Source: Methylobacterium sp. (lineage in GTDB: Bacteria; Pseudomonadota; Alphaproteobacteria; Rhizobiales; Beijerinckiaceae). From it: a stretch of DNA of 37,255 bases. The notes beneath the pieces are model-generated. The model saw only the letters and a program-made list of their open reading frames with translations, made no database searches and was not told where the DNA came from. This document shows positions 32,694 through 37,255 of the stretch, one piece after another. The stretch is from contig NZ_JAQGKL010000070.1 in NCBI RefSeq assembly GCF_028290105.1, positions 1 through 37,255 of the forward strand, in the 5' to 3' direction. The first letter of the stretch is position 1. Every line of letters begins with the position of its first letter. Made by a program: the position numbers and the translations under genes.

Positions 32694-33007
32694 GATCCTG
32701 TTTCTCCTCGGGCAGACCCACGGGCCCTTGCGAAAGCCGCTGGCGTCGCCGCGCGCGGCCCCCACGGGGCCCCGTCGACCTCGGGTCTTAGTGGGACTCG
32801 GTTAAGCGAAGGTTCCATCAACCTTGACGGAGCGTTATCGGCGACCGAACCAAGTCTCCGGAGAGGTCCGATCCGGCGCCGTCCGTTCAGGCATGTCCCC
32901 TCGGCCCGGATTGCGGCAGCCGCGCGTCGAACCGAGGCGCGGGGTCGATTGCAGCCAAGCTGTGGCCGGGCCGCAACAGGCGTGGATCCCGTGCGTGACG
33001 CGGGTCG
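32694..33007. other. 314-nt gap upstream of pal without a gene
   Basis: It must hold the promoter of the pal cluster, because the next minus-strand gene is unrelated. A 12-bp GC palindrome ACGGGGCCCCGT (32764-32775) and a TTAA near 32811 are present, but I found no convincing -35/-10 pair, tRNA, or remnant of tolB. Confidence 0.4.
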
Positions 33008-33502
33008 TCAGGCGCCGGCCTCCAGGGCGTCGATGGCGGCGATGGCCTGCACCGCTGCCAGGCGGGCGGCGTCCAGGGGGGTGGCGAGGTCGGCGCCGAG
33101 CAGGAAGGCCTGCTCCATCTCCATGCAGCGCCGGGAGAGATCGACGAAGCCGAGGGAGCCGCTCACCGACAGCAGGGTGTGGGCGTCCTGGCCCAGAGCG
33201 GCGCGTTCCGTGGCGGGGGCGTGCAAACGCTGCGCGATTTCGACCTTCAGGCGTCCGAGTAGGTCCATCAGCTTGGGCCGGCCGAAAATCTCCTGCAGTT
33301 CCCGGAGGGCCTGCGGATCGTAAACCCGCTCACGAGCACTCGGACCCACGTCCTCGAATGCTGCAATATTCAGCGGAAAATCCAAAGCGGCGCAATTATT
33401 TTCTTCCGGCCGCGGCATCTGTACAGGCGGAAGACTCGGCATGGCATGGTCCAGAGATGTGTGGCGCGCATCCAGGCGCGCAGAGTAACGGAAAGACTGC
33501 AT
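33008..33502 (-). CDS. Histidine phosphotransfer (HPt) domain protein
   Basis: A protein of up to 164 aa. The C-terminal ~110 residues form an HPt four-helix bundle: YDPQALRELQEIFGRPKLMDLLGRLKVEIAQRL, then the phosphoacceptor His108 in DAHTLLSVSGSLGFVDLSRRCMEMEQA. HPt proteins relay phosphate between hybrid histidine kinases and response regulators. It is divergent from a single-domain response regulator only 62 nt away, a likely partner. The start is uncertain: ATG 33502 (used), 33442 and 33418 all lack a Shine-Dalgarno. The N-terminal ~45 residues show no domain, and a CtrA-like site lies within 4 nt of the first ATG, which favours a later start. Confidence 0.75.
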   Translation of the reverse strand: MQSFRYSARLDARHTSLDHAMPSLPPVQMPRPEENNCAALDFPLNIAAFEDVGPSARERVYDPQALRELQEIFGRPKLMDLLGRLKVEIAQRLHAPATERAALGQDAHTLLSVSGSLGFVDLSRRCMEMEQAFLLGADLATPLDAARLAAVQAIAAIDALEAGA

Positions 33503-33505
33503 CCG

Positions 33506-33521
33506 TTGATTGGTGTTTAAC
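33506..33521. promoter_or_regulatory. CtrA-like site between HPt and response-regulator genes
   Basis: TTGA (33506-33509), seven bases, TTAAC (33517-33521): 8 of 9 positions of the CtrA consensus. It sits in the 62-nt divergent gap; an imperfectly related inverted repeat CGAAT-N9-ATTCG follows (33521-33539). Confidence 0.45.
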
Positions 33522-33564
33522 GAATATCGGACTAATTCGGCCGTGCAAAGAGTTGGTGCGAGCG

Positions 33565-33999
33565 ATGCGACAGCGTCAAATCCTCATCGTCGAAGACAAT
33601 TACCTGCTTCTCGACATGCTCACGGGCCTGTGCGAGCGGCAGGGGATCGGCGTGATGGCGGTCTCCAGCGGCGAGGCGGCGGTGTCGGCGATCCGGCAGG
33701 CGGGATCGGAGCCGCGCCGTAGCGATCTCGCGCTGCTGATCACCGACATCAACCTGCCGGGGCTGATCGACGGCTGGTCCGTCGCGGAGGCCTTTCGCAC
33801 GCTCAATCCGGATCTGCCGGTGATCTACACCTCGACGGGGGGATGCAGCGACCGGCGCGCCGTATCGGGCAGCATCTTCCTCAGCAAGCCGTTTCGCATC
33901 CAGGACGTGGTCGATCTGGCCGGCGCGCTGATGCGCTCGCCGTCGGAGACACAGGTCCCTCGGACACTCCCGCCTCGGGCGCTTCACGCCACCGGATGA
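33565..33999 (+). CDS. Single-domain response regulator
   Basis: A 144-aa CheY-like receiver. The acidic pair is Glu10/Asp11 (ILIVEDN), the phosphoacceptor Asp61 (LLITDINLPG), the switch Thr89/Ser90 (PVIYTST) and the invariant Lys108 (FLSKPF). There is no output domain; the C-terminal ~20 residues are Pro/Thr-rich and probably disordered. It is divergent from an HPt gene, so the two probably form part of one phosphorelay fed by a kinase elsewhere. ATG 33565 is used; GTG 33556 would add three residues. It is convergent with hemC after 26 nt. Confidence 0.9.
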   Translation: MRQRQILIVEDNYLLLDMLTGLCERQGIGVMAVSSGEAAVSAIRQAGSEPRRSDLALLITDINLPGLIDGWSVAEAFRTLNPDLPVIYTSTGGCSDRRAVSGSIFLSKPFRIQDVVDLAGALMRSPSETQVPRTLPPRALHATG

Positions 34000-34025: not shown

Positions 34026-34949
34026 TTACTGAAGGTGCCGGGCGTAGGTATCGCCCGCCAGCCGCTTGAGTTCGGCGCCGGCCTCCTGCCCGATCCGCGC
34101 CGCATCCGTCACCAGGCCTTCGCGCCGTACAGCCCAATGGGCGCTGCCATCGGGGAGGAACAGCAGGCCGTCGAGGTCGAGCCGGTCCCCCGTGATCCGG
34201 GCCAGCGCCGCGATCGGGGTGCGGCAGGAGCCGTCGAGTTCCGCGAGCAGGCCGCGCTCGGCGGCGAGTTCGGCCGTCGCACGCGCCGAGACCAGGGGGG
34301 CGAGCAGGGCGCGCACGTCCGTGTCGGCCTCGCGGCACTCGATGCCGAGCGCCCCCTGGGCCACCGCCGGCAGCATCTCGTCGACGGAGAGGACGCTGCG
34401 AGCCATGTCGGCCATGCCGAGCCGTTCCAGGCCGCACAGCGCCAGCAGGGTGGCGTCGCAGGTGCCCTCCTCCAGCTTGCGCATCCGGGTGTTGGCGTTT
34501 CCGCGCAGGGGCACGATACGCAGGTCGGGCCGGCGCATCAGGACTTGCGCGGCCCGGCGCAGGGACGAGGTGCCCACCCGCGCGCCAGCTGCGAGCTCGC
34601 CGAATCCGCTGGCTTTGTGGGACAGGAAGGCGTCGCGCGGGTCGTCCCGCTCGAGGATGCAGGCGATGACGAGCCCGTCCGGAAGCCAGGTCTCGACATC
34701 CTTCATCGAGTGGACCGCGACGTCGACGGATTCGGCGTAGAGCGCCTGTTCCAGTTCCTTGGTGAACAGGCCCTTGCCGCCGATCTCCGAGAGGGGCCGG
34801 TCGAGGATGCGGTCGGCCACCGTGTTGACCACCACGATCTCGGTCTGGAGCCCCGGATTTGCGGCGACGATCTGGTCGCGAACCATGCCCGTCTGGGCCA
34901 GGGCCATCGGGCTGCCGCGCGTACCGATGCGAAGAGGGCGTTGGATCAT
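34026..34949 (-). CDS. hemC: Porphobilinogen deaminase (hydroxymethylbilane synthase)
   Basis: A 307-aa heme, siroheme and cobalamin pathway enzyme that polymerises four porphobilinogens into hydroxymethylbilane. The N-terminal LRIGTRGSPMALAQ, the catalytic Asp84 in VHSMKD, the substrate-binding VGTSSLRRAAQ and GNANTRMRKLEEG, and the dipyrromethane cofactor attachment Cys242 (AELDGSCRTPIAAL) are present. The length is normal. hemD is not adjacent downstream, where the convergent response regulator lies. Upstream (34950-35193) is a 244-nt non-coding stretch with four TGTCAC copies. Confidence 0.97.
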   Translation of the reverse strand: MIQRPLRIGTRGSPMALAQTGMVRDQIVAANPGLQTEIVVVNTVADRILDRPLSEIGGKGLFTKELEQALYAESVDVAVHSMKDVETWLPDGLVIACILERDDPRDAFLSHKASGFGELAAGARVGTSSLRRAAQVLMRRPDLRIVPLRGNANTRMRKLEEGTCDATLLALCGLERLGMADMARSVLSVDEMLPAVAQGALGIECREADTDVRALLAPLVSARATAELAAERGLLAELDGSCRTPIAALARITGDRLDLDGLLFLPDGSAHWAVRREGLVTDAARIGQEAGAELKRLAGDTYARHLQ

Positions 34950-35193: not shown

Positions 35194-35541
35194 ATGAAGC
35201 GCAGTAAGCTCGAAACCTATTATCGCGACCAGTTCGGCGCTCCGGAAATGCCGGAGGACGAACCGGACGAGCCGGCGCCGACGCGGTCTCAACGCGGGCG
35301 TGGCGAGCCACCGCCCCGGCGCCGCGGCTTCGGTGTTTTTCGTCTCTTCAAGCTGACGCTGATGCTCGGCCCGATGGCGATCCTGCTCGGCGCGACGCTG
35401 CTGATGGATTGCCAGAGTGCGCCACAGGGCTCCTGGATACCGGGTGTCGTCCGCAGCACGGCCTGTGCCCGGCGTGATCTCGGCTCTCGGGTCCTCTCCC
35501 TCGAGGGCAACCTTCGCATGGTCGCCAACAGCATCCGATAG
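35194..35541 (+). CDS. Bitopic membrane protein of unknown function (MDC-x17-C), copy 1
   Basis: A 115-aa protein I do not recognise. A charged, Pro-rich N-terminal half ends in a basic cluster (PPRRRGFGVFRLFK). One membrane helix follows (about 52-71, LFKLTLMLGPMAILLGATLL), then a short C-terminal domain starting MDC. By the positive-inside rule the C-terminus is periplasmic. Its two cysteines, Cys73 and Cys91, are 18 residues apart and may form a disulfide. The tail after Cys91 matches the tail of the next gene position by position (Gly+6, Arg+8, Leu+12, acidic+13, Met+18). ATG 35194 starts MKRSKLETYYRDQFG; an in-frame TTG at 35158 is less likely. Confidence 0.7.
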   Translation: MKRSKLETYYRDQFGAPEMPEDEPDEPAPTRSQRGRGEPPPRRRGFGVFRLFKLTLMLGPMAILLGATLLMDCQSAPQGSWIPGVVRSTACARRDLGSRVLSLEGNLRMVANSIR

Positions 35542-35548
35542 GGTCCGA

Positions 35549-35611
35549 GTCGTCGATCAATCTCAGAATGTCGTCGATCAAGCCGAGGATGTCGGCGGCC
35601 AAACCGAGAAT
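35549..35611. repeat. Three tandem imperfect 21-bp repeats
   Basis: Units at 35549-35569, 35570-35590 and 35591-35611. Units 1 and 2 both begin GTCGTCGATCAA; unit 3 begins GTCGGCGGCCAA; all end in an AAT or GAT preceded by a CAG or GAG. They start 7 nt after the stop of copy 1 and lie between the two paralogous membrane-protein genes. Confidence 0.85.
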
Positions 35612-35685
35612 TCCGCACCCCCGCGCCGATGCCCGGGAGGTGCCAGTCTCCCTGCGTTGGGCAAAGTTCAGGACGTGAGGTCGGA

Positions 35686-36114
35686 ATGAAACCTGGATCG
35701 GCCGCGATCGCCGGAAGCGACATACGGCTCGGCGCGGAGGACGCTTCGAGCGAGGAGGAGGCCAGGAGCCAGGCCCGGGAACGGGCATTGGCGGCGCGAC
35801 TCGACTCGGCCACGATGCAGGAATTCCGCAGGGCGCGCAGTTCCACCTGGCGGCGCGCCAGCAACGTGGAGGCCCCGGCCTGGGACTTCCGCATCGGCTG
35901 GAAGACCTCGCTTCTCCTCAACCTGCTTCTGCTCGGCGGACCGCTCGTGCTCGCCGTCGCCTTGCCGCCGGTGATGGACTGTCGCGACCGGGAAGCCCGC
36001 TTCGGTTTCTTCGCTGGCGAAACCCTCCAGAGCTGCAGCATCCTCAAGATCGGGCAGCGCCTGCGGCGCCTCGACGACCGCATCAAGATGCTGGTGCGCG
36101 GCTCCGGCCGCTGA
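35686..36114 (+). CDS. Bitopic membrane protein of unknown function (MDC-x17-C), copy 2
   Basis: A 142-aa paralog of the preceding gene, family not recognised. The N-terminal ~65 residues are charged and helical (ASSEEEARSQARERALAARL). A basic segment (RRARSSTWRRASN) and one membrane helix (about 74-96, TSLLLNLLLLGGPLVLAVALPPV) lead into MDC with Cys99, and Cys117 follows exactly 18 residues later, as in copy 1. The tail ILKIGQRLRRLDDRIKML aligns with that of copy 1. Predicted N-in, C-out. GAGG lies 7 nt before ATG 35686. Tandem arrangement on one strand suggests duplication and shared expression; the role is unknown. Confidence 0.72.
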   Translation: MKPGSAAIAGSDIRLGAEDASSEEEARSQARERALAARLDSATMQEFRRARSSTWRRASNVEAPAWDFRIGWKTSLLLNLLLLGGPLVLAVALPPVMDCRDREARFGFFAGETLQSCSILKIGQRLRRLDDRIKMLVRGSGR

Positions 36115-36118
36115 GCCT

Positions 36119-36418
36119 TCAGAAGGCCTGCAGGGCGAGTTCGGTGTGTTCCACGCTGGGCGGCGCCTCGAAGCAGGGCGAGACCATGGCCCGGTATTCC
36201 TTCCAGGCCTCGGAGCCGGTGAAATCCACGGTGTGGTTCTCCAGGGTCTCCCATTCGATGTGGAGGCGGTAGCGCTGCGGCTTCTCGATGGAGCGGCGCA
36301 CCGCGAAGCTACGGCAGCCCTTGGCGGCCTTGAAGATCGCCGAGGCCTTGGCGATGCCGGCCTCGAATTCCGCCTCCATGCCGGGCTTGATGTCGATCTG
36401 CGCGATTTCGAGGATCAT
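36119..36418 (-). CDS. ABM-domain (antibiotic biosynthesis monooxygenase-like) protein
   Basis: A 99-aa dimeric alpha+beta-barrel protein of the ABM superfamily: MILEIAQIDIKPGMEAEFEAGI, KGCRSFAVRRSIEKPQRYRLHIEWETLENH and FEAPPSVEHTELA. Members range from quinol monooxygenases to heme-degrading enzymes; most small stand-alone ones, like this, have no assigned substrate. The heme-binding pattern of IsdG is not evident. The stop is 4 nt from the convergent membrane-protein gene. It lies 58 nt downstream of the Kdo hydroxylase gene on the same strand and may be co-transcribed. Confidence 0.88.
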   Translation of the reverse strand: MILEIAQIDIKPGMEAEFEAGIAKASAIFKAAKGCRSFAVRRSIEKPQRYRLHIEWETLENHTVDFTGSEAWKEYRAMVSPCFEAPPSVEHTELALQAF

Positions 36419-36476: not shown

Positions 36477-37255
36477 TCAGCGTAACGGCCGTCCGAGCGC
36501 CTGGGCGAGGAGGCGCTGCGGGCTGCGCTCGGGTCGGGCCTGGTCGGCCACCGCGAGGTAGGCCGTCTGCTCGAGCATGTACTGGCCGCCCATGGCCCCG
36601 TGCATGACGAGGTCCGAGAAGGTCACCCAGGTTTGGCCGGGGGCGAAGTGCACGTCGGCCTGCGGCGCGGTCTCCTGGTAGGCCAGGTCCTGCTTCAGGG
36701 CGTCGTGCAGGTGCAGCATCAGGTGGTCGTATTCCGAGCGCCGCGCTTTGGTGATCTTCAGGGCTGCCAGCAGACGCGCCGAGAGCGGCGAGTAGCCCGG
36801 CAGGCGCGGCAGGAACTTCTGCGCCATCGCGGAGAAATCCTCGCCGACCCGCCAGTGGCGGGGCTGCCCGTTCGGGTTGATGTTGCGGAAGATGCGCAGG
36901 ATGCGCTTCTCGCCGATCGGGTTCGACGGGAAGGCGTCGACGTGCAGCCGGGTGTCGTCGCGCCGCCAGCTCAGCTTTCGCTTGTCGACGTCGAAGGGCC
37001 GGTAGGATGTGCCGGCGAGCGAGACCTTGCCCGCATAGGTCGGCAGGTGCCGGGCGATGAGGCCTTCGGCGAAGGCGCGGTAGCGGATCAGCACCTGGCG
37101 CAGGGCCTCTTGCTCCTCCGGCGTGCCGGCCGCGCCCTTCAGGGCGGCGGAGGCACCCCGGATGTTGACGTTCTTGGCCTTTCCGTCGGCGAAAGGCCGC
37201 TCGACGAAGCGCTGATCGAAGGCGCTCAACGGAAAGTCGAGGTCGGGGAACATCA
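36477..37255 (-). CDS. Kdo hydroxylase family protein, 5'-truncated by the window
   Basis: At least 258 residues of a Kdo hydroxylase-like (KdoO, DUF2843) non-heme Fe(II)/alpha-ketoglutarate/O2 enzyme. In Burkholderia and Yersinia this family hydroxylates the Kdo of LPS to Ko. Visible blocks: GKAKNVNIRG, TSYRPFDVDKRKLSWRRDDTRLHVDAFPSNP (the HxD metal motif), RIFRNINPNGQPRHWRVGEDF and the distal His in FSDLVMHGAMGGQYMLEQT. The ATG at 37253 is probably internal: family members carry some 30-40 further N-terminal residues, and the frame runs off the window end. The role in LPS core modification is inferred from the family. Confidence 0.86.
   Translation of the reverse strand, partial: MFPDLDFPLSAFDQRFVERPFADGKAKNVNIRGASAALKGAAGTPEEQEALRQVLIRYRAFAEGLIARHLPTYAGKVSLAGTSYRPFDVDKRKLSWRRDDTRLHVDAFPSNPIGEKRILRIFRNINPNGQPRHWRVGEDFSAMAQKFLPRLPGYSPLSARLLAALKITKARRSEYDHLMLHLHDALKQDLAYQETAPQADVHFAPGQTWVTFSDLVMHGAMGGQYMLEQTAYLAVADQARPERSPQRLLAQALGRPLR

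Follow-up and report, generated by a model that had tools for sequence, protein, structure and literature searches.

Tandem genes encoding two small paralogous membrane proteins with a conserved cysteine pair represent an apparently undescribed family in Methylobacterium

In a 37,255-nucleotide stretch of DNA from a Methylobacterium strain (the window, meaning the whole stretch that was analysed), two small genes, here called A and B, are found head to tail between hemC and the gene of an ABM-domain protein. A preliminary description, made from the letters of the window, had presented their products as tandem paralogues built on a common plan, with a membrane helix followed by two precisely spaced cysteines. 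The question raised by this locus is whether A and B are members of a real protein family and, if so, which role such proteins could play in the cell envelope. The features concerned are the following, the context genes being given last.

35194..35541, + strand: gene A, predicted bitopic membrane protein of 115 residues (18-row alignment; dN/dS 0.14-0.49 by segment)
35194..35247, + strand: A residues 1-18, conserved and putatively cytosolic N-terminal motif SKLExYYxxxFG (dN/dS, alignment)
35344..35400, + strand: A membrane helix, residues 51-69 (hydropathy 1.77, sole segment; model helix 48-70)
35410..35412, + strand: codon of A Cys73 (invariant in 18/18 aligned A proteins)
35464..35466, + strand: codon of A Cys91, followed by Ala-Arg (CAR; Cys invariant in 18/18, CAR in 17/18)
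35542..35685, + strand: A-B intergenic stretch (three imperfect 21-nt repeats)
35686..36114, + strand: gene B, predicted bitopic membrane protein of 142 residues (19-row alignment; C-tail dN/dS 0.38)
35908..35964, + strand: B membrane helix, residues 75-93 (hydropathy 2.28, sole segment; inside model helix 72-105, pLDDT about 90)
35980..35982, + strand: codon of B Cys99, PPxxxCR motif (invariant in 19/19)
36034..36036, + strand: codon of B Cys117, within the second model helix 114-138 (invariant in 19/19)
34026..34949, - strand: hemC, divergent neighbour of A, context only (TIGR00212, E 3.6e-102)
36119..36418, - strand: ABM-domain protein gene, convergent neighbour of B, context (PF03992, E 8.2e-13)
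36477..37253, - strand: Kdo hydroxylase gene kdoO, context (NF053719, E 1.4e-102)

The intergenic repeats are direct repeats located at 35549-35611 and are 100, 81 and 71% identical to the first. On the - strand, a 321-residue open frame (35289-36254) runs antisense to both A and B and is probably a high-GC shadow frame. Next to hemC, the gene of an Hpt-domain protein (PF01627; 33008-33502, - strand) lies beside a receiver-domain frame within 32824-33999 (+ strand; PF00072, E 2.1e-11), and the two are a possible orphan phosphorelay pair. A scan for promoters and terminators was uninformative, and the sole Rfam match at the gathering threshold was a tRNA at 34-107.

The pattern pointed out in A and B turned out to be exact. 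Both proteins contain MDC, with a second cysteine 18 residues further on (Cys73 and Cys91 in A, Cys99 and Cys117 in B), and a hand count gave identical positions after the second cysteine for Gly (+6), Arg (+8), Leu (+12), an acidic residue (+13) and Met (+18). Each has a single hydrophobic helix and two cysteines, no more. When compared by BLASTP, the two proteins were not significantly similar over the conserved region (E 54), and A as query retrieved B in its own genome at an E value of 0.27 only, so that a chance pattern was possible judging from the window alone. Comparison of an A profile (18 rows) with a B profile (19 rows) by hhalign gave an alignment spanning the helix, both cysteines and the tail, with an E value of 3.3e-7 and a probability of 93%. 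Furthermore, iterated profiles built from A recovered B-type proteins and those built from B recovered A-type proteins. At the level of profiles, A and B were thus shown to be homologous, i.e. paralogues.

No credible family for A or B was found in Pfam, NCBIfam, PHROGs, PADLOC or the PDB sequences. Weak matches to DUF2889, DUF2045, DUF3040, DUF7155 and PBP1_TM concerned one or two members each (E 0.016 or worse), and those to one PHROG (E 0.038) and to PDB chains (E 2.5 or worse) were not credible either. A literature search, whose scope stopped short of subscription papers, revealed no account of the family. The earlier remark that no described family with this signature is known was supported. 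We consider it very nearly certain that A and B belong to a real protein family, apparently undescribed and restricted to Methylobacterium.

In order to align its members, two fragments were removed from 76 profile matches (L052, without the first cysteine, and L016, truncated), and the remaining 74 rows were thinned to 47. Three A proteins, with a 10-residue insert, a short insert and a scrambled helix, respectively, but all with both cysteines, were also omitted, leaving an alignment of 44 rows. Start codons of the relatives were picked by eye and gene neighbours were obtained with a simple GC-frame picker. The two cysteines were the only invariant columns in these 44 mixed rows, and likewise in an alignment of 22 rows. 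As had been anticipated, both were kept in all intact members aligned, including every aligned row of the divergent types. In one lineage, 10 residues are inserted between the A cysteines and both cysteines are intact, as expected for a loop closed by a disulfide.

The spacing of 18 residues, exact in A and B of the window, proved to be a tendency rather than a rule among their relatives. It was found in 15/18 A orthologues (17, 19 and 28 in the others) and in all 19 B-type proteins; a third paralogue of the same genome (L063) has a spacing of 17. Over 90 rows, 62 spacings were 18, 21 were 17, three were 19, three were 21 and one was 22, these values being picked automatically and possibly off where the helix contains an extra cysteine. 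Exactly two cysteines were present in 17/18 A and 16/19 B proteins. A Gly-[Phe/Leu]-[Phe/Tyr] stretch separates the cysteines in 19/19 B-type rows, and SKLE was observed in 11/18 A proteins, the seven without it including all five of a second gene neighbourhood described below. The members share one helix followed by two cysteines usually 17 or 18 residues apart; in B-like types these enclose the Gly-aromatic stretch.

By our own labelling, the family comprises about six sequence types. The third paralogue lies on another contig, flanked by clpB and the gene of a short-chain fatty acid transporter. Among divergent types from other clades, one is adjacent to an aldehyde dehydrogenase gene, one to a flagellin or 2Fe-2S protein gene, and a further, very divergent one is located downstream of genes that by eye resemble those of sulfite reductase. 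In genome G326, this last type is itself arranged in tandem (L188, 3943-4950), possibly through an independent duplication.

A family member was present in 80 of 111 Methylobacterium genomes with a broad profile, which left 31 genomes of the genus with no match, and in 76/111 with the A/B profile. A contig scan with one pattern returned 18 loci: 16 from Methylobacterium species or strains, one from a Methylobacterium MAG and one from a Beijerinckiaceae MAG. The relatives that had been expected across alphaproteobacteria do exist beyond this strain, but the order and family searches placed them in one genus only. These profile searches covered 397, 248, 397, 248 and 259 genomes, in overlapping samples that partly include the genus itself; orders beyond its own were covered solely by the one-pattern contig scan. 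Single-sequence searches of 99 relatives gave five marginal matches outside the genus (G092, G094, G078, G084 and G089), which the family profiles scored at E 0.06 or worse, and the profile searches gave six others (G411, G520, G191, G544, G555 and G613). In none of the eleven does an open frame encode a hydrophobic helix followed by the two spaced cysteines. As far as the profiles and samples reach, the family thus appears to be restricted to the genus. No relative was found on viral contigs scanned with one single peptide pattern. A plasmid search gave one weak match to B (E 0.03, 32% covered), in a 2.8-Mb Methylobacterium bullatum record; A and one divergent member had none. The SKLExYYxxxFG motif occurs in A alone in this genome and had no plasmid match.

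To follow the constraint along each protein, dN/dS was determined against five orthologous loci. For A, the values were 0.14 for residues 1-18, 0.49 for the linker, 0.25 for the helix and 0.26 for the C-tail; for B, they were 1.04 for the N-tail, 0.48 for the helix and 0.38 for the C-tail. These ratios showed that A and B encode proteins under purifying selection. The idea that conservation and function reside in the periplasmic end was right for B, whose N-tail appears unconstrained (1.04 vs 0.38 for its C-tail), and did not hold for A, in which residues 1-18 have the lowest dN/dS of all segments, below that of its own C-tail (0.14 vs 0.26).

The one-helix topology proposed for the pair was kept in its relatives, a single hydrophobic helix being predicted in 37/37 A and B proteins. 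The A protein has seven Lys and Arg in the 20 residues preceding the helix and one in those that follow. When Lys and Arg were counted within 20 residues, the N side was richer in 18/18 A and 15/19 B proteins, four B proteins being tied. Following the positive-inside rule, this excess of basic residues ahead of the helix points to a cytosolic N-terminus and a periplasmic C-terminus, and would place both cysteines in the periplasm. By net charge, the N side was more positive in just 13/18 A and 14/19 B proteins, which makes the orientation less sure for some of them. An intramolecular disulfide between the two cysteines is plausible, given that they are paired, conserved and assigned to a compartment with DsbA-type enzymes. 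The genome encodes three DsbA-family proteins, which could oxidise periplasmic A and B cysteines; they belong to a Pfam family that also contains other enzymes.

The structure models of both proteins were weak. In the AlphaFold model of B (19 rows; pTM 0.39), helix 72-105 crosses the membrane and extends past it, and a turn connects it to helix 114-138; pLDDT is about 90 in this region, and Cys99 and Cys117 are on the two arms. The model of A (pTM 0.31) contains helices 5-14, 48-70 and 84-114. We infer from these models that a helical hairpin may form just outside the membrane in each protein. At E <= 0.001, Foldseek returned no match for B in PDB or BFVD, nor for A in PDB. A second-look structural alignment, restricted to Foldseek's own candidates, gave 3dxr_B as its best match, a middling helical hairpin (Z 5.4, rmsd 4.6, 68 aligned residues) from the TIM9.10 assembly. 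The small Tim chaperones are disulfide-stapled, soluble, mitochondrial proteins with a helical hairpin like the one predicted for A and B; no relation is claimed, the tool itself cautioning that helical proteins with Z under 8 to 13 may share just a common arrangement.

Two other explanations of the cysteines were considered and rejected. A lipobox consists of an N-terminal signal with a small residue immediately before the modified cysteine; A and B have none, as the helix starts at residue 51 in A and at residue 75 in B and is not N-terminal, and Asp precedes the first cysteine in both. Haem-binding proteins of the cytochrome c type carry CXXCH, which is missing from A and B, where the only two cysteines are 18 residues apart.

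The functional analogue that fits A and B best is MgrB, through a likeness of design and not through homology. Passages of one account (PMC10576120) describe MgrB as a small bitopic inner-membrane protein that has its N-terminus in the cytosol and its C-terminus in the periplasm, where two conserved cysteines are suggested to form a disulfide; they also report that MgrB inhibits the sensor kinase PhoQ and that its two periplasmic cysteines are essential. In the same way, A and B have one membrane helix followed by two conserved cysteines (37/37), which we place on the periplasmic side. Unlike the A/B pair, MgrB is single and far shorter (about 47 residues), and its cysteines (C28 and C39) are 11 residues apart instead of about 18. 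No MgrB match at E <= 1 was obtained in Pfam, which we take to include an MgrB model, for A, for B or for any of the aligned proteins (19 of the B type, 18 of the A type).

A and B, which are paralogous and co-encoded, would be bitopic inner-membrane proteins, each with a short helical hairpin just outside the membrane that is stapled by one intramolecular disulfide. They would bind one another and, in addition, a larger envelope protein via the membrane helix and the hairpin, A supplying the sole conserved cytosolic contact, SKLExYYxxxFG, and the pair would act as an adaptor or regulator of its larger partner in the manner of MgrB on PhoQ. As a whole, this mechanism is put forward tentatively, with a probability of roughly 0.4. 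The named neighbours of the family (hemC, ABM, kdoO, receiver, ClpB, short-chain fatty acid transporter, aldehyde dehydrogenase and flagellin genes) indicated no shared pathway.

The linkage of A and B bears directly on this proposal. Recurrent tandem occurrence, which had been expected of a functional family, was observed: among the matches listed (150 places, 75 of 76 genomes), a same-strand pair within 1.5 kb was present in 46/75 genomes. A was 5' of B in all 17 named tandem loci. In 12/18 named loci the pair stands between hemC and the ABM gene, kdoO following in 11 of these 12 (none lies within the stretch of the other), and in 5/18 it is downstream of genes for a phosphoribosyltransferase and a receiver-domain protein; the remaining named locus (L150) carries B but lacks A. 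In a quick tree, the A proteins grouped in a single clade with an SH-aLRT of 99 and the B proteins in a second one with 87, each containing members from both neighbourhoods. The tree was built on 82 columns for 90 rows, excluded two A rows with the insert and the fragments, L175 included, and came with a program warning that long branches join the A and non-A sides. As both clades contain both settings, the duplication seems older than the move, and the presence of the tandem in two different neighbourhoods suggests that the pair moved together.

The pairing is not obligatory, since some genomes keep one gene plus a remnant of the other: A is kept beside a short B remnant in G004, and B with an A remnant without the first cysteine in G058. 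In the A homologue of G010 (L058, 2012-2401), the membrane helix appears by eye to be replaced by unrelated residues, perhaps through frameshifts; the tail and the two cysteines are still present. Survival of either gene alone would be expected if A and B were independent small proteins with separate partners, the tandem being merely an old in-place duplication. The additional paralogues that occur singly at other sites, among them the ClpB-linked copy of the genome studied here, and the unrelated N-tails of A and B agree with such independence, which we regard as possible, though somewhat unlikely. However, order and strand persist across two neighbourhoods and diverged lineages, and this is unexplained by simple descent at one site.

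It could also be imagined that the disulfide is reversible, the hairpin opening under periplasmic reducing stress so that a partner, for instance a sensor kinase, is switched. The two invariant cysteines, with few others, are compatible with a redox sensor, and there is a precedent in MgrB, for which the same passages (PMC10576120) give C28 and C39 as essential and mention redox sensing as a proposal. A purely structural staple, however, predicts the same conservation, and among the neighbours that received a name, a minority of the total, no kinase was recognised and only one site showed a receiver-domain gene. Redox sensing of this kind is considered unlikely. It is decidedly improbable that A and B form a trans-envelope signalling adaptor peculiar to Methylobacterium, in which the conserved cytosolic motif of A would dock a partner in the cytosol or the membrane and the disulfide hairpins of the two proteins would together read a periplasmic state (redox or envelope stress). 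If this were true, the ClpB-, aldehyde-dehydrogenase- and sulfite-reductase-linked and other types would be parallel channels on the same module.

The divergent pairing with hemC at 12/18 named loci might suggest that the cysteines carry metal, haem or copper, or exchange thiols. Such a role is very improbable, as A and B have neither CXXCH nor CXXC, no His is invariant, no Met is invariant except the start Met, and the second neighbourhood contains no hemC within the fetched stretch. Finally, the two genes are small, without a known domain and partly antisense to the 321-residue frame, and some remnants exist, but it is hardly credible that they are spurious or decaying open reading frames, with dN/dS clearly below 1 throughout A and in the helix and C-tail of B and with the family present in most genomes of the genus.

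Like bacterial taxonomically restricted genes in general, A and B are small, lineage-bound, fast-changing and without a database family; unlike these, their family is strongly conserved within the genus and its tandem linkage is kept. The family is no mere artefact, yet it falls short of a novel kind of system. For Methylobacterium, a plant-associated genus, this means that most sampled species carry an unannotated family with a well-defined gene pair amenable to deletion and tagging. More generally, the family offers a well-sampled, genus-restricted case, with repeated duplication and an apparent joint move, that is useful for understanding the origin of new envelope proteins.
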